41,438 nucleotides of DNA, taken from positions 1 to 41,438 of the forward strand of contig QBWA01000008.1 in assembly GCA_003283745.1 (NCBI GenBank), in the 5' to 3' direction. The notes under the pieces are model-generated. The model ran no database searches, was not told where the DNA came from, and saw only the letters and a list, made by a program, of their open reading frames with translations. The DNA comes from Prochlorococcus sp. AG-315-B03. GTDB taxonomy: Bacteria > Cyanobacteriota > Cyanobacteriia > PCC-6307 > Cyanobiaceae. Of this stretch, positions 10,883-35,857 are shown in pieces (the first letter of the stretch is position 1; the number at the start of each line of letters is the position of its first letter). The position numbers and the translations under genes were made by a program.

Positions 10883-12751
10883 TAAATGTCATCTATTTTT
10901 TATTAGTAAAACCCAGATAAAAATAATTGTTTACTTTAGCTACTAAACTGGGGATGTTTTTAGGACTAACGTAAAAATGCAGAAACATAGGAATAATCAT
11001 CATGAGAATAAGATAGAGACTGAAACAATTACATTTCCAGTTCAATTAGCCTTAGGAGAAATAAAAGAAAATATATTTAATATAAACAATCCTTCTAAAT
11101 ATTCCAAAGAAGAAATAATTAATCAAGCATTTAAGCTTCACTCAGAAGGAAACATTTTAGAAGCCACAAAATATTATAAGTACTTTATAGCGCAAGGATT
11201 TACAGATGCAGGAGTATTCTCTAATTATGGAGTGATACTTAAACAATCAGGGGCAATATATGAAGCCATAGATCTATATAGGAAGTCAATCAAATTATTC
11301 CCAAATAGACCAGAGGCCTATTACAACCTTGGAATAATTTTAAAAGATCTTGATAAGTTAGAAGAAGCAAAAGAAACAACATGTAAAGCTATTGAAATCA
11401 ATAGAGATTACGCTAAGGCTCATCTGAATCTAGGATGTATATTAAAAGATCTTGGAAAATTAAAAGAAGCAGAAAGATCTACAAGAAAAGCTATTGAACT
11501 TAATCCTAAATTGTCTCAAGCTCATTATAATTTAGGATCAATTCTATTAGATTGTGAAAGAAATAAAGAAGCTGAATTAGCAACATATGAAGCCATTTCA
11601 CTAAATCCAAACTATGCACAAGCTTATAATAATTTAGGGATAATCATGTCAATGAATAAAAAGCAAAAAGAAGCTAAATTATTGTTTCGTAAAGCTATTA
11701 AACTGAACCCTAATTATGCAGAAGCTCACAACAATTTAGGTAATATAATGAGGAATTTAGATAATCTAAAGGAAGCAGAAATACTAACACGAAAGGCTAT
11801 TGAGATTAAAAAAGATTATTCACTTGCTTATTTCAATCTTTCATTAATCGAACTACTCAAAGGAGACTATAAAACTGGTCTAGATCATTACGAATTCAGA
11901 TTTGAAAAACTTAAGCTCAGCTCTCCTTATGGTAGTCCAATCTTAAATAGACATAAGGGAACTCCATTACAAGAAAATGAGAAATTATTAGTCATTAGCG
12001 AGCAAGCTCCTGGTGATGTGATCTTTCATATGCGTTATTTATTACCTCTAAAGAAACAAGGAGTCGATGTATCATTTTGTGCGCCTAAAAAATTACATAG
12101 CTTGATTAAAGATTCTGGTATTCATCCAAATCCCCTATCACCTGAAGAATGCACTCTTGTGACAGAAGGAGAATGGATTCCGTTGCTGTCTCTATTGAAG
12201 TATTTCAAAGTTAGTCCCAACAACCCCGTAATCAATACTCCATATCTCTCAACAACAGAGACACTAAAAGATAAATGGCGAAAGATTCTATCCAATGAAA
12301 AAAGACCAATCATTGGTATAAATTGGCAAGGGAGTAAAAAACTTGATGAAACCTTCTATAAGGGGCGTTCTATACCTTTAGAAAAATTCTCAAAGCTTCT
12401 AGAAAAAAATGATATTAGATTTCTTTCCTTCCAAAAAGGTTTTGGTTCAGAACAAATGGAAGAATGTACTTTTAAAGATCATTTTGTGAGTTGTCAGAAG
12501 CAAATTGATGAGATATGGGATTATTCAGAAACAGCTGCAATTATTGAAGGTTGTGATTTAATTATTACCAATGACTGTAGCATTGGTCCTTTGGCTGCTG
12601 GAATGGGTAAAAAAGTTTGGTTGATGCTAAAGAAAATACCTTTTTGGACTTGGGGACTTGAAGGAGAAAGTACATTTTGGTATCCATCTATGAGATTATT
12701 CCGTCAAAAAGAACTTGATAACTGGGATGAAGTTATGGAAAGAGTTTCAAT
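10104..12751 (+). repeat. Near-identical 757-bp direct repeat: 10104-10860 and 11995-12751
   Basis: From ttagcgagcaagctcctggt to ggaaagagtttcaat the two glycosyltransferase domains match base for base by eye, offset by 1891 bp. The one difference I find is T at 10703 against G at 12594 (Ser to Ala). Flanking DNA in both genes is clearly diverged on either side. The sharp borders and silent-site identity point to recent gene conversion or duplication of a catalytic cassette. Confidence 0.9.
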
Positions 12752-12785
12752 TGAACTAAAGGGAGAAATTAGTGAAAGGGGCTGA
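10977..12785 (+). CDS. TPR protein with C-terminal GT9-like glycosyltransferase domain (copy 2)
   Basis: A 602-residue paralogue of the preceding gene, from ATG 10977. The N-terminal ~90 residues are related but diverged (FPVQLALGEIKENIFNINNP). There are about seven TPRs (residues ~85-310) against about five in copy 1, with different sequences. From VISEQAPGDVIFHMRYLLPL onward (~340-595) the protein equals copy 1 except Ala for Ser in GPLAAGMGK; the C-terminal tail (KGEISERG) differs again. The two proteins thus have the same predicted catalytic domain on different TPR scaffolds, consistent with the same reaction on different acceptors (inference). The gene follows copy 1 by 94 bp in the same direction. 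Confidence 0.8.
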   Translation: MQKHRNNHHENKIETETITFPVQLALGEIKENIFNINNPSKYSKEEIINQAFKLHSEGNILEATKYYKYFIAQGFTDAGVFSNYGVILKQSGAIYEAIDLYRKSIKLFPNRPEAYYNLGIILKDLDKLEEAKETTCKAIEINRDYAKAHLNLGCILKDLGKLKEAERSTRKAIELNPKLSQAHYNLGSILLDCERNKEAELATYEAISLNPNYAQAYNNLGIIMSMNKKQKEAKLLFRKAIKLNPNYAEAHNNLGNIMRNLDNLKEAEILTRKAIEIKKDYSLAYFNLSLIELLKGDYKTGLDHYEFRFEKLKLSSPYGSPILNRHKGTPLQENEKLLVISEQAPGDVIFHMRYLLPLKKQGVDVSFCAPKKLHSLIKDSGIHPNPLSPEECTLVTEGEWIPLLSLLKYFKVSPNNPVINTPYLSTTETLKDKWRKILSNEKRPIIGINWQGSKKLDETFYKGRSIPLEKFSKLLEKNDIRFLSFQKGFGSEQMEECTFKDHFVSCQKQIDEIWDYSETAAIIEGCDLIITNDCSIGPLAAGMGKKVWLMLKKIPFWTWGLEGESTFWYPSMRLFRQKELDNWDEVMERVSIELKGEISERG

Positions 12786-12967
12786 ACCTTTTCTGAATAA
12801 TCATATTATTTTAATTTTATATAATTGAGTTCAGAATCTTTTCTGACTTTGTTTGTTTGTTTGGTTGGTCTATCTATTAAATATCTTTATATATAATACT
12901 AATACTTATGTTAAATCGCTATAATAAAAGTGTGATTCTGACTAAACTTGTTCTTTGTTTTTAATCA

Positions 12968-13432
12968 TTAGTTTTGAATATCTTTTAATGCTCTTATTGC
13001 CTCTTTTATATGTGCTGGTCCATTAAGAAGATCTTCGAAGATGTGTACTATGATTCCTTTTGAATTAATGATATAAGTAACCCTACCTTCTACCATCCCT
13101 AAGAATTTAGGGACTCCAAATATTTTTCTTAGATTATTATTTCTGTCACAAAGTAATGGGTAAGGTAAATTGTTCTTATTAGCGAAAGCTAGATGACTAT
13201 CACGGTCTCCATTACTTATCCCCCATACTTCAGCACCCAGTACTTTAAATAGGTCGTATTTATCACGAAAACCACAAGCCTCTATAGTGCATCCAGGGGT
13301 GTCATCTTTGGGATAGAAAAACAAAACTAGTGGTTTATTTAATCCATCAGGAGTTCTGGGTTTCCCATTTTGATCAAGGACTGAAAATGTTGGGATTTTA
13401 CTACCAATGTCCAACATCACTATGTTACCCAT
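12968..13432 (-). CDS. Peroxiredoxin, Bcp/PrxQ type
   Basis: Thiol peroxidase that reduces hydrogen peroxide and alkyl peroxides with thioredoxin-type donors. The 154-residue protein has the PrxQ active site DDTPGCTIEACGFRD with peroxidatic Cys48 and resolving Cys53 (CxxxxC), preceded by VLFFYPKDD and followed by the YDLFKVLGAEVWGIS segment. An alternative start at Met6 (MLDIGSKIP, base 13417) would fit the usual family N-terminus equally well. It converges with the TPR glycosyltransferase gene, and upstream of it lies the pcb relic. Such a peroxiredoxin is common next to photosynthetic genes but the neighbourhood alone gives no functional link. Confidence 0.93.
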   Translation of the reverse strand: MGNIVMLDIGSKIPTFSVLDQNGKPRTPDGLNKPLVLFFYPKDDTPGCTIEACGFRDKYDLFKVLGAEVWGISNGDRDSHLAFANKNNLPYPLLCDRNNNLRKIFGVPKFLGMVEGRVTYIINSKGIIVHIFEDLLNGPAHIKEAIRALKDIQN

Positions 13433-13555
13433 AATATTCCATAATTATAAGATCTTTTTATTTAATCGAGAGTTACTTATCGGAGAGATAACAACAAATG
13501 CACAAAATATTGATTTTTTCTTTATATTCTAAACAAATATTTTGTTAGGTAAATT

Positions 13556-14135
13556 TATAAAGAAATTCAAGAGCTTTCTGTTTGTGCGATTTTTTTTAAT
13601 TTACATTCTTTCAGGAGTTTTTAGCATCATTGGTAAATGCTATTGTTTTTTTAATACATCCTTCTATTGATCTTCAATGTTAATTGTAATCACAATTATT
13701 ATTTATTGATTTTTGATAGCCTTGAAGATTTTCTGTGAGGATCTGAATTTCTTGCTTACGCTCAAAAAACTTTTGAGCTAAATATTATGACTACATAAAT
13801 TCTCTTAGGATTATTTGGTGTTTATATGTAATTCAAAGGATTTAAACTTTCTTCTGCTGAGACTGTCCTTGGCTAAATGGTTCTTTTTGAAGAATTTTGG
13901 TATGCAAAAGATGATTGTTTTTTCAGTTTAATTATATTTCGGATCTTTTGCTTTGGAATATAAGTCTCTTTTTGTATTGGATTGATAAAGTGATAGTTCA
14001 GCCTCCCTTGGAATATAACTCGTGCTGATTTGTCTGGGGTTCATTGCTATTTGTGATTCTTCTTTTTGAAAACTCATTCGAAGCATGCTATTACCACTTT
14101 AGGATTTGACTTGAAGAAGGCTTCCAAATTTAACT
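13556..14135 (+). pseudogene. pcb: Heavily decayed pcb antenna gene (fifth copy)
   Basis: No open frame survives, but the plus strand follows the 3' two-thirds of a pcb gene in order. aaagaaattcaag at 13559 matches the KKFKLEW region. FNVNCNHNYYLLIF leads into DSLEDFL-stop-GSEFLAY at 13715-13759 (intact genes: DSLEDVMGGHAFLAF). attcaaagg at 13831 matches EFKG, followed by ctttcttctgctgag (LSSEA). ggattgat at 13979 matches YWID. gttcattgctat at 14039 matches VHYY. HAITTLGFDLKKA is at 14094-14132 (intact: HAIRALGFDFKKV). Multiple stops and indels break it. It lies directly upstream of the four intact pcb genes in the same direction. Confidence 0.8.
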
Positions 14136-14574
14136 CGAAACTTAGATGGCCAAAGAATTACTCTTAATGGTAATTAATGAGTTGAAAAGCTGATTTTGTT
14201 AAGTTATTTTGGACCTCGGTATTTTGGGGCGTTTTGCTGCTAAATGAAAAAATATATCCGATGGTGCCTAATGCCAATCCTTTTCGGCTATATTTCTTAT
14301 CTCTTGGAAAGCCATGATTATAGTATTAAATTCTAGATAGTCATTTGAAGTTGGTTTAGACTCGGCGCTGTGATTTTGATTATAGTCTTTCTATGTAAAG
14401 TAAATATCTGGCCTAAAGCCTTTCTATGTAATGATTGATAGCTCTAATCTTTCTTTGGATTACTTCAGGACTACTGCTCTAAGGTAACTAAATTTTGATA
14501 TTAAATAACGATTCCAAGCAAATTACTAGCAGTACTTGTATCCTAGAGCGAATTTCGACTTCAATTCTTTAATT
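14136..14574. other. Non-coding gap before the first intact pcb gene
   Basis: About 440 bp with no credible open frame on either strand. It holds a short direct repeat (ctttctatgtaa near 14386 and 14421). Its end holds the promoter/leader of the next gene, including taacgattcc at 14506, 69 bp before the ATG, which corresponds to the taac[gt]attc motif at 71-73 bp in the other three pcb leaders. The rest of the leader element is not conserved here. Confidence 0.5.
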
Positions 14575-15663
14575 ATGCAGACGTACGGAAACCCAGACGT
14601 CACCTACGGGTGGTGGGTTGGTAATTCTGTTGTAACAAATAAGTCAAGCCGATTTATTGGCTCGCATGTTGCCCATACAGGATTGATTTGTTTCGCAGCG
14701 GGTGCAAACACACTTTGGGAGCTCGCTCGTTACAACCCTGATATCCCAATGGGTCACCAGGGAATGGTAAGTATTCCTCATCTGGCCTCTATAGGTATAG
14801 GTTTTGATCCAACTGGAGCAGTTTTTGATGGCACATCTATTGCTTTTATAGGTGTATTCCATTTGATTTGTTCAATGGTTTATGCCGGTGCCGGTCTTTT
14901 GCATTCCTTAATCTTTAGCGAAGATACTCAGAATAGTTCTGGTTTATTTGCTGAAGGTCGTCCTGAACATACTCAGGCAGCTCGCTACAAGCTTGAGTGG
15001 GATAACCCAGATAATCAGACCTTTATACTTGGTCACCATTTGATTTTCTTTGGTGTTGCCTGTATATGGTTTGTTGAATGGGCTAAATGGCATGGTATTT
15101 ACGATCCTGCTTTAGGAGCTATTAGGCAAGTTGAATACAACTTGAATTTGACTCATATCTGGCAACATCAGTTTGACTTCCTTTCTATTGATAGTTTGGA
15201 AGATGTTATGGGCGGACACGCTTTCTTAGCATTTGTAGAGATCACAGGTGGTGCTTTCCATATAGCAACCAAACAAGTTGGTGAATACACTGAGTTCAAA
15301 GGAAAGAATATTCTTTCTTCTGAAGCAATATTGTCTTGGTCTCTAGCAGGTATTGGTTGGATGGCTATTATTGCCGCTTTCTGGTGCGCAACAAATACGA
15401 CTGTTTATCCAGAAGCTTGGTATGGGGAAACACTAGCTCTTAAATTTGGCATATCTCCTTATTGGATTGATACTGCTGACATGACTGGAGTTGTTAGTGG
15501 TCATACTTCAAGAGCTTGGCTTTCAAATGTTCATTACTATCTTGGCTTCTTCTTCCTTCAAGGTCATCTATGGCATGCAATCCGTGCTTTAGGATTTGAT
15601 TTCAAGAAGGTTACTGATGCTGTAAGTAATCTAGATAACGCTCAAGTTACTCTTTCTGATTAA
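14575..15663 (+). CDS. pcb: Pcb divinyl chlorophyll a/b-binding antenna protein (first intact copy)
   Basis: Prochlorophyte light-harvesting protein of the CP43/IsiA family: six membrane helices binding divinyl chlorophylls in the thylakoid around a photosystem. The start is ATG 14575 (MQTYGNPDVTYGWWVGNSVV), shared by all four copies, and not the TTG 39 bases upstream. The 362 residues include the typical FIGSHVAHTGLICFAAGANT, FILGHHLIFFGVACIWFVEW, DSLEDVMGGHAFLAFVEITG, LSWSLAGIGWMAIIAAFWC and HYYLGFFFLQGHLWHAIRAL. The conserved His residues in these helices are the expected chlorophyll ligands. There is no large lumenal loop as in true CP43. A connector (FAEGRPEHTQAARYKLEW) is longer than in the neighbours. 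A strong terminator follows. Confidence 0.97.
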   Translation: MQTYGNPDVTYGWWVGNSVVTNKSSRFIGSHVAHTGLICFAAGANTLWELARYNPDIPMGHQGMVSIPHLASIGIGFDPTGAVFDGTSIAFIGVFHLICSMVYAGAGLLHSLIFSEDTQNSSGLFAEGRPEHTQAARYKLEWDNPDNQTFILGHHLIFFGVACIWFVEWAKWHGIYDPALGAIRQVEYNLNLTHIWQHQFDFLSIDSLEDVMGGHAFLAFVEITGGAFHIATKQVGEYTEFKGKNILSSEAILSWSLAGIGWMAIIAAFWCATNTTVYPEAWYGETLALKFGISPYWIDTADMTGVVSGHTSRAWLSNVHYYLGFFFLQGHLWHAIRALGFDFKKVTDAVSNLDNAQVTLSD

Positions 15664-15690
15664 TTGATTAGCTTTTAATCTCAAAAAAAA

Positions 15691-15720
15691 GCCTCGTCAT
15701 TTTGACGAGGCTTTTTTTTT
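15691..15720 (+). terminator. Intrinsic terminator of the first pcb gene
   Basis: The stem gcctcgtca / tgacgaggc (15691-15699 and 15703-15711) is followed by ten T bases and preceded by eight A bases, 27 bp after the pcb stop codon. Confidence 0.9.
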
Positions 15721-15734
15721 GATCAGAAATAGTC

Positions 15735-15767
15735 AAAAAAAAAGCAGGAATTGTCCTGCTTTTTTTC
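15735..15767 (-). terminator. Bidirectional terminator between pcb and the small minus-strand gene
   Basis: The stem agcagga / tcctgct with a short loop (15743-15760) is flanked by an A-run on the left and a T-run on the right, so it can stop transcription from both sides. It lies just after the stop of the minus-strand small membrane protein gene. Confidence 0.75.
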
Positions 15768-15779
15768 TAGATTTAATTC

Positions 15780-15983
15780 TTACTTATAATTTTCAGGCTT
15801 GGCCCAAGGATCTATTCTTTTTGAATCATCAGAGTAGTAAAAGAATTGAGATGCACCGAAAACTGCTCCTAGTCCACAAAGAGTTGGAATAATAGCAAAG
15901 CCACCCGAAGGTTTGATTAAACCAATATCAGAAGGGTGAGGTAGCTGAGTGGCAAAATCAAGTAGGTGAGAAAAATCAATCAT
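15780..15983 (-). CDS. Small single-span membrane protein, pcb-cluster paralogue 1
   Basis: A 67-residue protein from the ATG at 15983 (MIDFSHLLDFATQLPHPSDI). The longer frame from 16028 adds 15 residues not shared with the paralogue, so it is not used. It carries FATQLPHPSD and LIKPSGGF, then one predicted membrane helix (FAIIPTLCGLGAVFGASQFF) and a polar tail (YYSDDSKRIDPWAKPENYK). The gene at 17702-17917 encodes a clear paralogue. Both sit on the opposite strand between pcb genes. I do not recognise a named family; a small thylakoid protein associated with antennae or photosystems is a reasonable guess from position only. Confidence 0.75.
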   Translation of the reverse strand: MIDFSHLLDFATQLPHPSDIGLIKPSGGFAIIPTLCGLGAVFGASQFFYYSDDSKRIDPWAKPENYK

Positions 15984-16102
15984 TGATTTAGATGAAAAAT
16001 GTTTTTTATAGATAACCCAGGTGGCCACTATGCCAGACCCGTGTTCATAGATTTTACATTAATATTAGAAGCAACAGAGAAAAACCAAATATTCTTAGTG
16101 AT

Positions 16103-16297
16103 TTAAAATCCTTTTGGTTTACTCTTCTTTTTTTCTGAATTAAGTTGATGTTTTGGTTCTTTGGACTTGAGTTTCTTTCTGATTAATACAATAGCAATTG
16201 CCAACAGACATATTCCAAGAAGTCCAAACCAAATTATTCCTGCAATAAAAGGCAGTCCTTTAAGGTTTTGTAATTCGAGTTGTAACGCTGATTCCAT
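16103..16297 (-). CDS. Small single-span membrane protein of unknown function
   Basis: 64 residues: a short N-terminus (MESALQLELQNLKG), one strong hydrophobic helix (LPFIAGIIWFGLLGICLLAIAIVLI) and a very basic tail (RKKLKSKEPKHQ...KKKSKPKGF). By the positive-inside rule the tail is cytoplasmic. It lies on the minus strand between the first two intact pcb genes, 119 bp upstream of the paralogue-1 start, and might be co-transcribed with it. No family recognised. Confidence 0.65.
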   Translation of the reverse strand: MESALQLELQNLKGLPFIAGIIWFGLLGICLLAIAIVLIRKKLKSKEPKHQLNSEKKKSKPKGF

Positions 16298-16392
16298 TCC
16301 GAAAAAACGACCTTTTTTTTAAAAATTCAAGTAAAACACTAAATTGACCTGTTGATAAAATGTCGTGGATTAAAAAAATTTACTACTTCTAA

Positions 16393-16476
16393 ATAAAGAC
16401 CTTTAACTATTCTGAGCTTTTGAATTGACCTCAATGTAAGGTATGTGCACCGTATAACGCCTAAAACTCTTAAATC
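16393..16476 (+). promoter_or_regulatory. Conserved pcb leader element (second intact pcb)
   Basis: ataaagacctttaactattc starts at 16393, 84 bp before the ATG. The same element precedes the third (83 bp) and fourth (82 bp) copies. Downstream of attctgagc this leader diverges from the other two but keeps gaattga. It probably contains the promoter or transcript start and a 5' UTR control element. Confidence 0.6.
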
Positions 16477-17532
16477 ATGCAGACCTACGGAAACCCGGAT
16501 GTCACCTATGGGTGGTGGGCTGGTAATTCTATGGTAACCAATCGTTCAGGACGATTCATTTCCTCGCATATTGCGCATACAGGAATAATCGCCTTTGCGA
16601 CTGGTGGTAGCACTCTTTGGGAACTAGCTCGCTACAACCCAGAGATACCTATGGGGCATCAAAGCTCTTTATACCTTGCTCATCTTGCTTCTATTGGCAT
16701 TGGCTTTGATGAAGCTGGTGTTTGGACTGGAGCAGGAGTTGCAGCGATTGCAATTGTTCATCTCATTCTCTCCATGGTTTATGGAGGTGGTGGTCTTCTT
16801 CATGCAGTTCTGTTTGTTGAAGATATGCAGGACTCTGAAGTCCCGCAGGCAAAGAAATTCAAGCTGGAATGGGACAACCCTGATAACCAGACTTTCATCC
16901 TTGGCCACCATTTGATTTTCTTTGGTGTAGCAAATATCTGGTTCGTTGAATGGGCCAGAGTCCATGGAATCTATGACCCTGCACTCGAAGCAATTCGTCA
17001 AGTTAATTACAATCTTGACTTGACTCAGATCTGGAATCATCAATTTGACTTCTTAACCATTGATAGCCTTGAGGATGTCATGGGTGGTCATGCTTTCTTG
17101 GCATTCTTCCAGATTGGTGGTGGTGCATTCCACATCGCAACTAAGCAAATTGGCACATATACCAAATTCAAGGGAGCTGGTTTGCTTTCAGCAGAAGCAA
17201 TTCTTTCTTGGTCTTTAGCAGGTATTGGCTGGATGGCAGTTGTTGCTGCTTTCTGGTGTTCACAAAACACTACTGTTTACCCTGTTGAATGGTTTGGCGA
17301 GCCTTTAATACTTAAGTTTGGAATAGGTCCATATTGGGTCGACTCTGTAGCTCTCCCTTCAGATGGTGCATTCTTTGGACACAGTACTCGTTGTGCTTTG
17401 GCTAACGTTCACTATTATTTAGGGTTCTTCTACATTCAAGGCCATTTATGGCATGCATTGCGTGCTATGGGATTTGACTTCAAGCGTTTGCTTGATAGAA
17501 CTGGTCCTTATGGAATACCAAGAACTCCTTAA
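16477..17532 (+). CDS. pcb: Pcb divinyl chlorophyll a/b-binding antenna protein (second intact copy)
   Basis: A 351-residue antenna protein starting MQTYGNPDVTYGWWAGNSMV. All CP43/IsiA-family segments are present: FISSHIAHTGIIAFATGGST, HLASIGIGFDEAGVWTGAG, FILGHHLIFFGVANIWFVEW, DSLEDVMGGHAFLAFFQIGG, LSWSLAGIGWMAVVAAFWCS and HYYLGFFYIQGHLWHALRAM. Compared with its neighbours it has GGST where they read GANT, and its C-terminal loop is distinct (SVALPSDGAFFGHSTRCALA). Which photosystem it serves cannot be settled by eye. It has its own leader and terminator, so it is probably a single-gene transcript. Confidence 0.97.
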   Translation: MQTYGNPDVTYGWWAGNSMVTNRSGRFISSHIAHTGIIAFATGGSTLWELARYNPEIPMGHQSSLYLAHLASIGIGFDEAGVWTGAGVAAIAIVHLILSMVYGGGGLLHAVLFVEDMQDSEVPQAKKFKLEWDNPDNQTFILGHHLIFFGVANIWFVEWARVHGIYDPALEAIRQVNYNLDLTQIWNHQFDFLTIDSLEDVMGGHAFLAFFQIGGGAFHIATKQIGTYTKFKGAGLLSAEAILSWSLAGIGWMAVVAAFWCSQNTTVYPVEWFGEPLILKFGIGPYWVDSVALPSDGAFFGHSTRCALANVHYYLGFFYIQGHLWHALRAMGFDFKRLLDRTGPYGIPRTP

Positions 17533-17587
17533 TTAAAGAATCGTTCTTGTTCTATTTCACCTGATATTAGGTTGAACTATTTTTATA

Positions 17588-17616
17588 CCTCTATCTTTTG
17601 ATAGGGGTTTTTTTTT
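17588..17616 (+). terminator. Intrinsic terminator of the second intact pcb gene
   Basis: The stem cctctatc / gatagggg (17588-17595 and 17600-17607), with a 4-nt loop, is followed by nine T bases. Confidence 0.85.
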
Positions 17617-17640
17617 GAATTTTTTGGAACATTTCCATCA

Positions 17641-17677
17641 AAAAAGGGCAGAGTTAAAAACTCTACCCTTTTAAACT
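17641..17677 (-). terminator. Intrinsic terminator, probably for the small minus-strand gene
   Basis: An imperfect hairpin (aagggcagagtt / aactctaccctt) is flanked by A-rich sequence on the left and T-rich on the right. It sits 25 bp past the stop of the minus-strand gene at 17702 and can act in both directions. Confidence 0.7.
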
Positions 17678-17701
17678 TTTTAAGATTTATATTATCTAGT
17701 T

Positions 17702-17917
17702 TTAAGACTTTGATAATTTTTGTCTTTCTGTTCCTTCAAACTTTTCAGGATCGTTACAGTCTCTTGCATACCAATGAAATTGGGAGACTTGAATTATTGC
17801 AATCACTCCAAAGATTGCTGGAAGTAGTTGCAAGCCACCAGAAGGCTTAACTAATCCAAGGTCTGATGGATGAGGTAATTGGGTTGCAAAATCAAGCAAA
17901 TACGAAAAATCAATCAT
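17702..17917 (-). CDS. Small single-span membrane protein, pcb-cluster paralogue 2
   Basis: 71 residues from the ATG at 17917 (MIDFSYLLDFATQLPHPSDL); seven extra residues from 17938 are not conserved in the paralogue and are left out. It shares FATQLPHPSD and KPSGG with the gene at 15780-15983, then has a hydrophobic helix (LQLLPAIFGVIAIIQVSQF) and a charged tail (HWYARDCNDPEKFEGTERQK). The N-terminal 30 residues are far better conserved than helix and tail, so they are probably the functional contact surface. It lies on the strand opposite the pcb genes, like its paralogue. Family unknown to me. Confidence 0.75.
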   Translation of the reverse strand: MIDFSYLLDFATQLPHPSDLGLVKPSGGLQLLPAIFGVIAIIQVSQFHWYARDCNDPEKFEGTERQKLSKS

Positions 17918-18413
17918 CAAATTAATGAATCTGTACATTAGTTATAGCTGAGAGTTTAGTTTTAAAGAAAGAAATTTGTATTTTTGACATCAGTATTAAT
18001 GACTAAGACGAATTAAGCTTTATTCCTCCTGACTTCATTAAAGAAGATTTTTTGGTTTCAAAAGGTTTTAAAGCGATTACAAGGATTTATTTGCTCTTCA
18101 CCTCAAACTTAGTTAAAAAAACTACTCTAGAAAAAAGTTTTTGGAATTTTTTCGAGATCTTTAGGCTTCTTAGCTGAGTATCTTTGAGTCTTTTTAGATT
18201 TTTTTAATTATTTGTCTTTATATACATAGATTTTATTATTTTTTTATATAGATCAGCTTGGAACTAGTGCTGATTCTTTGATTGATTTCCTAAACCATTG
18301 CGCTGTAGTCTTTCTCAGGCTTCTCTGACGCCATAGAATTTTTAAATAGATTGAAAAATTCCTATTTTAAGCCATTTTTTTTGACTGTTATAAATAAATA
18401 TTTGACTAACTAA
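17918..18413. other. Non-coding AT-rich gap before the third intact pcb gene
   Basis: About 500 bp without a credible frame. I looked for pcb-like residues as in the 13556-14135 relic and found none. It should hold the promoter of the minus-strand small gene at its left end. Confidence 0.4.
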
Positions 18414-18496
18414 ATAAAGACCTTTAACGATTCTGCGCATATCAATTGAGCAGCGTGTAATCTGCATTGCATATTTGCCTGTACTGCTTAAAAATT
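18414..18496 (+). promoter_or_regulatory. Conserved pcb leader element (third intact pcb)
   Basis: ataaagacctttaacgattc begins at 18414, 83 bp before the ATG, and continues ctgcgcatatcaattgagc and gtgtaatctgcat. The last two stretches recur almost unchanged in front of the fourth copy, so conservation spans about 50 nt of presumed promoter and 5' UTR. Confidence 0.7.
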
Positions 18497-19612
18497 ATGC
18501 AGACCTATGGAAATCCAGAAGTTACCTACAAGTGGTGGGCTGGTAATTCTGTGGTTACCAACCGCTCTGGCCGATTCATTGCCTCACATATTGCACATAC
18601 AGGAATGATCTGCTTTGCGGCTGGCGCAAACACACTTTGGGAGTTCGCTCGCTTTGATCCATCTATGCCATTGGGGCATCAGGGTGGATTAGCTCTTGCC
18701 CATTTAGCTGCTATCGGAATTGGCTTTGACGAAGCTGGAGTCTGGACAGGAGCTGGTGTTATCACAATTGGGATTCTCCACCTTATTTTCTCAATGGTTT
18801 ACGCAGGAGGAGGTCTTCTTCATGCGGTTCTCTTTGAAGAAAAAGTTGAAGATAGTGAAGTTTTACAAGCTCAGAAATTCAAGCTTGAATGGAACAATCC
18901 TGACAACCAGACATTTATTCTTGGACACCATTTGATTTTCTTTGGTGTTGCTTGTATATGGTTTGTTGAATGGGCCAGAATCCATGGGATCTATGACCCT
19001 GCTATAGGAGCTGTTCGCCAGGTCAATTACAATCTTGACTTGACTGCTATTTGGAATCATCAATTTGACTTCTTGACTATTGATAGTCTTGAGGATGTCA
19101 TGGGTGGCCACGCATTCCTTGCATTTGCAGAGATTACTGGTGGTGCTTTTCACATTATTGCTGGTTCAACTGCTTGGGAGGAAAAGCGTTTAGGTGAATG
19201 GAGCAAGTTCAAAGGTGCTGAATTACTTTCAGCAGAAGCTGTTCTTTCCTGGTCTTTGGCAGGTATTGGTTGGATGGCAATTGTTGCTGCCTTCTGGTGT
19301 TCGCAAAACACTACTGTTTATCCAGAAGCATTCTTCGGGGATGTCCTTGAATTTAAGTTCACTATCGCTCCATTCTGGAACGATGCTGTTCATCCTGTTG
19401 AAGGAGGGGGCTATGCATATGGTTATTCAACACGTGCTGTTCTTTCAAACTCTCATTATTATCTTGGTTTCTTCGCACTTCAAGGTCATTTTTGGCACGC
19501 TCTTCGTGCTCTTGGCTTTGATTTCAAGCAGATCTCAGGATCTTTTGGTAATCAAAAGGATGCAACTATTAGAGTTGACGGAGCTGGTTTTAATGGAAGA
19601 GCACCTGGATAA
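18497..19612 (+). CDS. pcb: Pcb divinyl chlorophyll a/b-binding antenna protein (third intact copy)
   Basis: 371 residues from ATG 18497 (MQTYGNPEVTYKWWAGNSVV); an upstream in-frame ATG at 18467 falls inside the conserved leader and is rejected. It has FIASHIAHTGMICFAAGANT, FILGHHLIFFGVACIWFVEW, DSLEDVMGGHAFLAFAEITG and LSWSLAGIGWMAIVAAFWCS. It is the longest copy owing to an insertion after AFHI (IAGSTAWEEKRLGEWSKFKG) where the others read ATKQxGxYTxFKG, and to an extended tail (GSFGNQKDATIRVDGAGFNG). The penultimate loop (HPVEGGGYAYGYSTRAVLSN) also differs. These are the places where photosystem-specific Pcb types usually differ, but I do not assign a type. Confidence 0.97.
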   Translation: MQTYGNPEVTYKWWAGNSVVTNRSGRFIASHIAHTGMICFAAGANTLWEFARFDPSMPLGHQGGLALAHLAAIGIGFDEAGVWTGAGVITIGILHLIFSMVYAGGGLLHAVLFEEKVEDSEVLQAQKFKLEWNNPDNQTFILGHHLIFFGVACIWFVEWARIHGIYDPAIGAVRQVNYNLDLTAIWNHQFDFLTIDSLEDVMGGHAFLAFAEITGGAFHIIAGSTAWEEKRLGEWSKFKGAELLSAEAVLSWSLAGIGWMAIVAAFWCSQNTTVYPEAFFGDVLEFKFTIAPFWNDAVHPVEGGGYAYGYSTRAVLSNSHYYLGFFALQGHFWHALRALGFDFKQISGSFGNQKDATIRVDGAGFNGRAPG

Positions 19613-19630
19613 AACTAAATCAAATGAAAA

Positions 19631-19657
19631 AACCTCCTTTATAGGGGGTTTTTTTTT
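19631..19657 (+). terminator. Intrinsic terminator of the third intact pcb gene
   Basis: The stem aacctcc / gggggtt (19631-19637 and 19644-19650) is followed by a T-run through 19657, 18 bp after the stop codon. Confidence 0.85.
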
Positions 19658-19730
19658 GTCTTTTTTTATTCATTGATAAAACGTTTTTTCTTTTAAAAAG
19701 GATTTTTTTTGTGAAAAATGAGATAGACCT

Positions 19731-19812
19731 ATAAAGACCTCTAACTATTCTGCGCATATCAATTGAGCACAGTGTAATCTGCATCGGTATCTCGACTGTA
19801 TCGATTAAAATT
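19731..19812 (+). promoter_or_regulatory. Conserved pcb leader element (fourth intact pcb)
   Basis: ataaagacctctaactattc starts at 19731, 82 bp before the ATG, and is followed by tgcgcatatcaattgagc and gtgtaatctgcat, nearly identical to the third copy's leader. Only 118 bp separate this ATG from the preceding terminator stem, so the promoter must lie within this short interval. Confidence 0.7.
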
Positions 19813-20862
19813 ATGCAGAGCTATGGAAATCCAGATGTCACTTACGGGTGGTGGGTTGGTAATTCTGTAGTGACTAACCGTGCTGGCCGATTCATTGGCT
19901 CGCATGTTGCTCATACAGGATTGATTTGTTTCGCTGCGGGTGCTAACACCCTTTGGGAGGTTGCTCGCTATAACCCTGAAATCCCTATGGGACATCAGGG
20001 AATGGTAAGTATTCCACACTTGGCTTCTATAGGCATTGGCTTTGATGAAGCTGGATTATTTACGGGAGTAGGAGTTGCCACAATAGGTATTTTCCACTTG
20101 ATCTTTTCTTTGGTCTATGGAACTGCCGGCCTTGCACACTCTTTGCTTTTCGATGCTGATCTAAAAGATGGTCCAATCCCAACAACCAAGAAATTTAAAC
20201 TTGAATGGGAAAACCCTGATAATCAGACATTTATTCTTGGCCACCATTTGATTTTCTTTGGTGTTGCGAATATATGGTTTGTTGAATGGGCTAGGTGGCA
20301 TGGAATTTATGACCCTGCTCTAGATGCTGTTCGAACTGTTTTCCCTGGTTATGGAGACTTTGCGATGGTATATGGCCATCAATGGGATTTCCTTCAGATA
20401 GATAGTCTTGAAGAAGTTATGAGTGGTCATGCTTTCTTGGCTTTCTTGGAGATCAGTGGGGGTGCTTGGCATATTGCAACCAAACAACTTGGTGAATACA
20501 CCGAATTTAAGGGAGCAGGACTTCTTTCGGCTGAAGCAGTACTTTCTTGGTCATTGGCTGGAATTGGTTGGATGGCTATGGTTGCTGCTTTTTGGTGTGC
20601 AACAAATACCACTGTTTATCCAGAAGCTTGGTATGGCGAGGTTCTACAGCTGAAATTTGGCATTTCACCCTATTGGATAGATACAGGAGATATGACAGGA
20701 GTTGTGACTGGTCACACTTCTCGTGCATGGCTTTCTAATGTTCACTATTATCTTGGATTCTTTTTTATTCAAGGTCATATTTGGCATGCTCTTAGAGCAA
20801 TGGGCTTTGATTTCAGGCGTGTTCTTGGATCTGTAGCTTCTCTAGCCTCAAGTGATAGTTAG
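19813..20862 (+). CDS. pcb: Pcb divinyl chlorophyll a/b-binding antenna protein (fourth intact copy)
   Basis: 349 residues, starting MQSYGNPDVTYGWWVGNSVV. Its N-terminal half (FIGSHVAHTGLICFAAGANT, MVSIPHLASIGIGFD) and its end (ISPYWIDTGDMTGVVTGHTS) are closest to the first intact copy, so these two look like sister genes at the outer ends of the cluster. The middle is unusual: DAVRTVFPGYGDFAMVYGHQ replaces the AIRQVxYNLxLTxIW segment, and DSLEEVMSGHAFLAFLEISG replaces DSLEDVMGGHAFLAF. A terminator follows. Confidence 0.97.
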   Translation: MQSYGNPDVTYGWWVGNSVVTNRAGRFIGSHVAHTGLICFAAGANTLWEVARYNPEIPMGHQGMVSIPHLASIGIGFDEAGLFTGVGVATIGIFHLIFSLVYGTAGLAHSLLFDADLKDGPIPTTKKFKLEWENPDNQTFILGHHLIFFGVANIWFVEWARWHGIYDPALDAVRTVFPGYGDFAMVYGHQWDFLQIDSLEEVMSGHAFLAFLEISGGAWHIATKQLGEYTEFKGAGLLSAEAVLSWSLAGIGWMAMVAAFWCATNTTVYPEAWYGEVLQLKFGISPYWIDTGDMTGVVTGHTSRAWLSNVHYYLGFFFIQGHIWHALRAMGFDFRRVLGSVASLASSDS

Positions 20863-20890
20863 TTTCTTCTTTAACTAATTTCAATAAAAA

Positions 20891-34768: not shown

Positions 34769-35857
34769 TTAACTTGAGGCGGCTAGTTCAAATTTAGTTA
34801 AATCAGTAGTTTCGCTTTTTTCGAAAATTTTACAAAAAGCTTTTATCACCCGATCACCAGAATCGACTTGTTCCAGTGGATCTTTACGTAGCCTATGTCT
34901 TAAAGCTGTTGAAATAACACGAGCAATATCTCCTTCCGAGACCTCTTTTCTTCCTTCAAATGCTGCAAGAGCTCTTGCAGACCTATTCGTCACAATATCT
35001 CCTCTTAATCCATCAACATCTAGTTCACCGCAAACCGCAGATATTCTTAGTCTTAGATCTTCGTCGATGCTGACATCATTAAGTAAATTCTGAGCATTAA
35101 TTACTCTTGTTTGAAGGGAATTCTGATTTTCTTTTACAGAATCGCTAAAAGTTTCAGGATCATTATCAAAAGCTGTTCGTTGATCAACAACTTGTACGCG
35201 AAGTTTTGCTTCCCTTACTGTCCTGACTTCAACGCTCATGCCAAAACGGTCAAGTAATTGCGGCCTCAATTCTCCTTCTTCGGGATTTCCGGATCCAATT
35301 AATACAAATCTTGCAGGATGCCTAACTGAAATACCTTCACGTTCAACTGTATTCCAGCCTGAAGCTGCTGAGTCTAGAAGAACATCAACGAGATGATCAT
35401 CGAGTAGGTTAACTTCATCAACATAAAGTAATCCGCGATTAGCTTTTGCTAATAGACCTGGTTCAAAAGCACGAACTCCTTCACTTAGAGCCTTTTCAAT
35501 ATCGATAGTTCCACAAAGTCTGTCTTCTGTTGCCCCTAAAGGGAGGTCAATCATTGGAACTTGCTTTTCCGTTTTTGCTATGTCAGCACCGACTTCTAAT
35601 TTTTCTCTAACTTCATTGCTTTGAAGATCAGGATCATCTAGTGAACTGTTATAGGGGTCACCCTCTACAACTTCAATAGCAGGAAGGAGATCTGCAAGTG
35701 CACGTATTGTGGTGGATTTACCCGTGCCTCGATCTCCCATGATCATTACCCCTCCAATTCTTGGGTCTATCACGTTGAGAAGAAGAGCCAATTTCATCTC
35801 TTCTTGGCCAATCACTGCAGTGAATGGAAAAACTCTGCGTTTTCTAATTGAACTCAC
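34769..35857 (-). CDS. chlI: Magnesium chelatase subunit I
   Basis: AAA+ ATPase that with ChlD and ChlH inserts Mg2+ into protoporphyrin IX, the first committed step of chlorophyll synthesis. 362 residues: [20 protein letters not shown], Walker [10 protein letters not shown] (41-49), [20 protein letters not shown], Walker [21 protein letters not shown] and the sensor [24 protein letters not shown]. All are intact and the length is normal. It leads a compact minus-strand run with ruvC. Confidence 0.98.

Follow-up and report, generated by a model that had tools for sequence, protein, structure and literature searches.

A decayed fifth pcb antenna gene beside a photolyase-related stump upstream of pcbA in Prochlorococcus sp. 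AG-315-B03

Does the seemingly empty DNA in front of the pcb antenna genes of Prochlorococcus sp. AG-315-B03 hold what is left of a fifth pcb gene, and if so, how was that gene lost? The question arises on contig QBWA01000008.1 of assembly GCA_003283745.1, a 957-kb draft in 61 contigs that is 56% complete; our window is the whole stretch of DNA analysed, 41,438 nucleotides in length. Four intact pcb genes, each assigned to PF00421, lie on its plus strand: pcbA (14575–15663), which matches the relatives' orthologue at 94–95%, p2 (16477–17532), p3 (18497–19612, its ATG lying inside the listed frame 18467–19612) and p4 (19813–20862). The left neighbour is an intact bcp-like peroxiredoxin gene (12968–13432, minus strand; AhpC/TSA, PF00578, 3.9e-31), also recognized by synteny, and divergent from the pcb cluster both in the host and in the 21 relatives' loci that show the two together. 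Across the interval from 13433 to 14574, no frame of 60 codons is listed besides one that runs into pcbA.

Within this interval, positions 13684–14167 of the plus strand are the relic of a fifth pcb gene, here called pcb5, corresponding to codons 186–353 of 354. We compared the relic with nucleotide profiles, one per pcb class, all built without the window sequence. The profile of intact pcb5 orthologues scored 80.2 bits over 168 codons (E 8e-27; 81.9 bits when G008, a relative that it had taken in, was omitted), whereas pcbA, p2, p3 and p4 scored 49.3, 50.1, 51.2 and 45.0 bits, a margin of 29 bits for pcb5 over its nearest competitor. Although these scores carry large bias terms (53–55 bits), 1,000 shuffles per class that preserved dinucleotide composition reached at most −0.5 bits for pcb5 and 3.3 bits for any class, and the window outside 13433–20870 scored −0.1 at best, so that the homology to a functional gene exceeds chance. 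Direct searches against the window's own pcb genes agree (blastn, 55–58% identity, E 2e-12 to 2e-16; tblastn, E 6e-14 to 1e-16), the tblastn match to pcbA (E 1e-16) spanning 156 residues with in-frame stops.

A preliminary description of this DNA had proposed just such a gene upstream of the four intact pcb copies, too far decayed for any open frame, and had set a frameshift-tolerant alignment of more than 150 residues as its threshold; the profile and BLAST matches bear out the proposal and exceed that length. Its borders, 13556–14135, do enclose pcb homology and need redrawing to the alignable part, 13684–14167, and the surviving part amounts to the 3'-terminal 47% of the gene, reaching to within one codon of the pcb5 stop, rather than the last two-thirds. 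Of its motifs, DSLEDFL followed by a stop (13715–13738), NHNYYLLIF (from 13688) and VHCY (from 14039) are present, while HAITTLGFDLKK begins at 14084 instead of 14094. The left border of the relic is uncertain, envelopes of the pcb profiles reaching back to 13661.

An intact fifth gene at the same locus in relatives, which the preliminary description had also anticipated, proved to be the rule. A genus-wide search covered 41 genomes including the host, and the cluster was taken from 27 relatives, the other 13 genomes having no cluster among the matches listed. In 21 of these 27 loci pcb5, directly upstream of pcbA, has a frame open across more than 90% of the gene; among the remaining six it carries one TGA (G008), is absent (G009), is rearranged at a contig end and broken, one piece being inverted (G029), or falls off the contig (G001, G020 and G036). 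A separate set of named loci (586 had a bcp relative; the best 80 were retained and the first 15 of them examined) contained seven with the pcb cluster beside bcp and eight without pcb in the stretch examined; all seven have a fifth pcb directly 5' of the pcbA orthologue, and since they match seven of the genus genomes they are not extra evidence. Intact pcb5 (for example L038:6373–7437, from Prochlorococcus sp. AG-402-P16), a member of the Pcb/IsiA family in the PF00421 group, thus shares with the relic both its class-specific sequence and its place 5' of pcbA, and because the best match is the pcb5 class and the place is the same, the relic is assigned as the orthologue of pcb5 rather than of pcbA or p2–p4. 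Unlike the intact gene, it has no start, promoter or frame, and only the last 47% remains. The host assembly, at 56% completeness, yielded no intact pcb5, the best match being pcbA at 76%; one may lie elsewhere in the host.

The relatives' cluster offers several observations in its own right. The pcb5 of G008 (L125:6813–7871) is open but for one TGA, at codon 80; two of the other 21 copies read TCA at this codon and 17 read GCA, and the stop could be either a real loss or an amplification error. By eye, the 3' half of pcb5 in G008 and in G024 (L137) resembles pcbA, which suggests gene conversion between neighbouring pcb genes. The p4 of G014 (L127:135–1181) is 94.8% identical to that of the window, against 83.6–84.9% in other relatives, a possible exchange of pcb alleles between lineages. 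A second pcb pseudogene suspected in G043, where two stops were flagged, was discarded, as the stops fall beyond the normal gene end. Solved structures did not tell which photosystem pcb5 served: the leading PDB matches are chains of IsiA and others named 'High light inducible protein', followed by CP43.

How did the relic decay? Beyond the missing 5' half, it is disabled by 12 indels, nine of them frameshifting, and by four in-register stops (13736, 13829, 13874 and 14054), and it retains 60–65% identity to the 21 open copies over 466 aligned columns. At columns invariant among those copies, it matches at 93 of 128, 104 of 143 and 19 of 26 sites for codon positions 1, 2 and 3, that is, at 72.7, 72.7 and 73.1% (chi-square p 0.999). 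The window's pcbA, by contrast, matches its 25 orthologues at 315 of 329, 345 of 350 and 106 of 115 invariant sites, a difference from the relic with p 3e-27 at positions 1 and 2. Decay that is even across the three codon positions marks neutral drift, and purifying selection is accordingly absent from the relic. Its base composition has moved as well, GC standing at 31.2% as compared with 40.8% in the same segment of relatives, with GC-to-AT changes at 48 of 134 sites and AT-to-GC changes at 17 of 162.

Differences at the invariant columns correspond to a Jukes–Cantor (JC) distance of 0.34 since loss. At fourfold sites, the JC distance between host and relatives is 0.50 for pcbA, 0.68–1.03 for the other three pcb classes, 0.95–1.00 for two housekeeping genes and 1.26 for bcp, which puts the host's own half of synonymous divergence at roughly 0.25–0.6. 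The two figures are comparable, and the loss of pcb5 is therefore old within the host lineage, in keeping with the word 'ancient' in the preliminary description; the age is rough, and the alignment behind it favours matches. A near sister of the host was sought and not found: with two housekeeping proteins, the best match per genus genome reached 75–81% and 85–89% identity (30 of 41 genomes matched in each case, host included, one match being a contig-end fragment). In a tree of 26 genomes built from five proteins (some rows without one or two of them), rooted by midpoint only and with a bootstrap that had not fully settled, the host's end branch is by far the longest, at 0.39.

The DNA to the left of the relic has a different origin. 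On the minus strand, 13549–13675 is the decayed 3' stump of a photolyase-related gene (DPRP, PF04244), one of two genes that lie between pcb5 and bcp in relatives, the other being a small DUF2805 gene. The stump covers about the last 43 codons and, in the gene's frame, carries one 4-base deletion and three in-register stops in 41 codons. The gene's own profile gives 19.7–21.5 bits over 13549–13674/13675, against 0.2 for the best of 1,000 shuffles; this homology to the gene's 3' end rests on a short, AT-rich match with a modest score and a strong composition bias (19.7 bits, bias 26.2), and its invariant-column matches (15 of 19, 22 of 26 and 6 of 6) are too few for a codon-pattern test. A profile of the region extends the match over 13403–13674 (47.5 bits, bias 47.9), and on 13433–13720 alone it scores 37.1 bits, the best of 1,000 shuffles reaching 0.1. 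In blastn, 13433/13444–13680 aligns with the bcp flank and the photolyase 3' end at 62–64% in all seven named loci, taking in the spacer upstream of bcp (13433–13548, GC 22%), and 13513–13680 matches G005 beside its bcp, more than 2 kb from the pcb5 of that genome. The first 100–128 bases of what had been described as pcb thus come from another decayed gene, one on the opposite strand. A pcb origin for 13433–13660, obtained by forcing an alignment on pcb5, was rejected in favour of the bcp flank and photolyase 3' end, to which the profiles and the better blastn matches point; weaker blastn matches to pcb remain over part of it. No second copy of the photolyase-related gene was found in the host, in a search of the 56% complete assembly run without a positive control.

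Between the two relics there is almost nothing. The profile alignments stop at 13675 (photolyase) and start again at 13684 (pcb5), about 8 bases apart, and the position of the joint between them is known only roughly, because the envelopes overlap over 13661–13694, the photolyase profile running forward to 13694, and because pcb genes give weaker blastn matches farther left, at 13650–13757 in several loci and, for pcb5 itself in L038, at 13453–13757 (58%, E 2e-5). By arithmetic on the coordinates of G016, about 2,860 bases are missing. The interval is very probably a gene graveyard: a deletion spanning about 2.9 kb probably joined the photolyase stump to the surviving 3' half of pcb5, after which the two remnants drifted. 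In the common ancestor of the host and its relatives the order would have been bcp, photolyase-related gene, small DUF2805 gene, pcb5, pcbA and the other three pcb genes; the deletion would have removed most of the photolyase gene, the DUF2805 gene, and the promoter and codons 1–185 of pcb5; and the stumps would afterwards have gathered frameshifts, stops and a GC-to-AT bias, the last measured for pcb5, as the pcbA leader stayed conserved. The 5' half of pcb5 was most likely deleted rather than merely eroded. We infer that a single deletion joined the two stumps and that it was this deletion that killed pcb5, a loss presumably tolerated owing to the remaining paralogues.

A stepwise course, with two or more separate deletions and erosion, the photolyase gene perhaps being lost first and pcb5 truncated later, is a possibility to be taken seriously, if on the improbable side. 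Two relatives, G014 and G026, have just such a state, with the photolyase gene broken or gone and pcb5 open; yet relics lying some 8 bases apart, or overlapping in their envelopes, leave no room for remnants of the DUF2805 gene or of the pcb5 promoter. It is very unlikely that the relic instead arose as a copy of pcbA, p2, p3 or p4 and then decayed. All five classes do match it significantly, and gene conversion, as hinted by the pcbA-like 3' halves seen by eye in some relatives' pcb5, may blur the classes, but pcb5 leads every other class by at least 29 bits, and the place, directly 5' of pcbA and adjoining the bcp and photolyase flank, is that of pcb5.

Still less can be said for an artefact of assembly or amplification, which we regard as highly improbable even in a draft of 61 contigs and 56% completeness, and even though the inverted pcb5 piece of G029 resembles such an artefact: over 484 bases the relic diverges by 35–40%, carries 12 indels, has decayed evenly across codon positions and has shifted towards AT, all of which is unlike amplification error. 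The joint alone could be artificial, and may be a chimera. That the relic, lying directly upstream of pcbA, is a conserved regulatory or RNA element with a chance resemblance to pcb is scarcely credible, given its neutral decay, the lack of any Rfam match within 12700–14997 up to E 0.1, and the presence of the pcbA leader in G009, where neither a pcb5 nor a photolyase remnant was detected.

Downstream of the graveyard, a decayed spacer (14168–14504; alignment A1) separates the relic from the pcbA leader and promoter region (14505–14574, plus strand), which is conserved though the sequence upstream of it has decayed (81–83% over 94–96 bases, into the coding start, in all seven named loci; 37.9 bits). 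A degraded terminator near 14210–14240 is possible, as alignment A1 suggests; a decayed terminator 3' of the relic, expected after pcb5, was not upheld by a profile of the spacer, which matched the pcbA leader side only. A regulatory RNA in the relic was likewise dropped, the 10 sub-threshold Rfam matches all lying at 14998 onward. Sub-threshold matches to IsrR, the isiA antisense RNA, on the minus strand opposite two pcb genes (14998–15167 and 18890–19061; 33.0 and 33.7 bits, cut-off 52) probably reflect homology to isiA and nothing else. A leader motif, ATTCTGMGC-N5-AATTGANC, occurs exactly at 16409–16430, 18430–18451 and 19747–19768, beginning 66–68 bases 5' of the ATG in three of the four intact pcb genes; with two mismatches there is a fourth match at 35832, and four matches were reached in none of 100 shuffles. 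In a looser form, at times at another distance, it precedes p3 in all 26 relatives compared, pcbA in 19 of 24, p4 in 6 of 25, p2 in 1 of 25 and pcb5 in none of 22.

Is the host alone in having lost DNA here? Of the 22 loci that show the interval from bcp to pcbA, five (the host, G008, G009, G014 and G026) lack an intact photolyase-related gene: it is frameshifted in G014 (L127), survives in pieces in G008 (L125) and G026 (L139), and between bcp and pcbA in G009 (L126) no remnant of it or of pcb5 was detected. The pieces in G008 and G026 have different end points, which speak for independent deletions. All three losses of pcb5 (host, G008 and G009) fall among these five loci (Fisher p 0.0065, a post hoc value uncorrected for kinship that rests partly on the single-base stop of G008). 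G009 groups in the tree with G026 (98/95), in which pcb5 is open, and its loss is therefore most likely separate from that of the host. Tentatively, and with rather more doubt than belief, we suggest that bcp–pcbA is a site of recurrent erosion in this group of Prochlorococcus, where independent lineages (the host, G009 and perhaps G008) lose first the photolyase-related gene and then pcb5, so that the antenna set would have undergone repeated, real reduction tied to changes of light niche, partly hidden under the label of partial genomes.

The kind of event is known, namely a pseudogene formed during gene loss, and the case is a clear but fairly ordinary one; what is new is the instance, its likely mechanism and the signs of repeated erosion of the interval. 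Luo et al. are said to have described the deletion of paralogues in Prochlorococcus in 2011. As in such losses from streamlined genomes, a single paralogue has gone under redundancy, whereas here an old relic can still be aligned, which one would expect to be unusual in compact genomes. The titles and abstract beginnings of the literature searched mention no pcb pseudogene, weak evidence of absence, with subscription papers mostly outside the search. The preliminary description held that antenna copy number is usually discussed as gain, an emphasis not shared by the passages we draw on from Becker et al. 2024 (PMC11559063), which place an expansion of pcb from the LLVII grade on and, in the ancestor of the high-light clades, the loss of every pcb gene except pcbA, and which name partial genomes as the most likely source of fine-scale variation within clades. 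As far as those passages go, the high-light loss and the present one are both reductions of an expanded antenna set; here, by contrast, one copy was lost in another group, which keeps several pcb genes, and a readable relic was left.

Antenna copy number, then, also falls within a group that retains several pcb genes, and the likely route is a deletion across two light-related genes followed by neutral rot. The relic provides a small neutral yardstick of how far GC content falls without selection in the host lineage. The absence of a pcb gene from a draft genome is not always an assembly gap, the host case being a real loss; and recurrent erosion of the interval, if true, would mean repeated reduction of the antenna set linked to changes of light niche.
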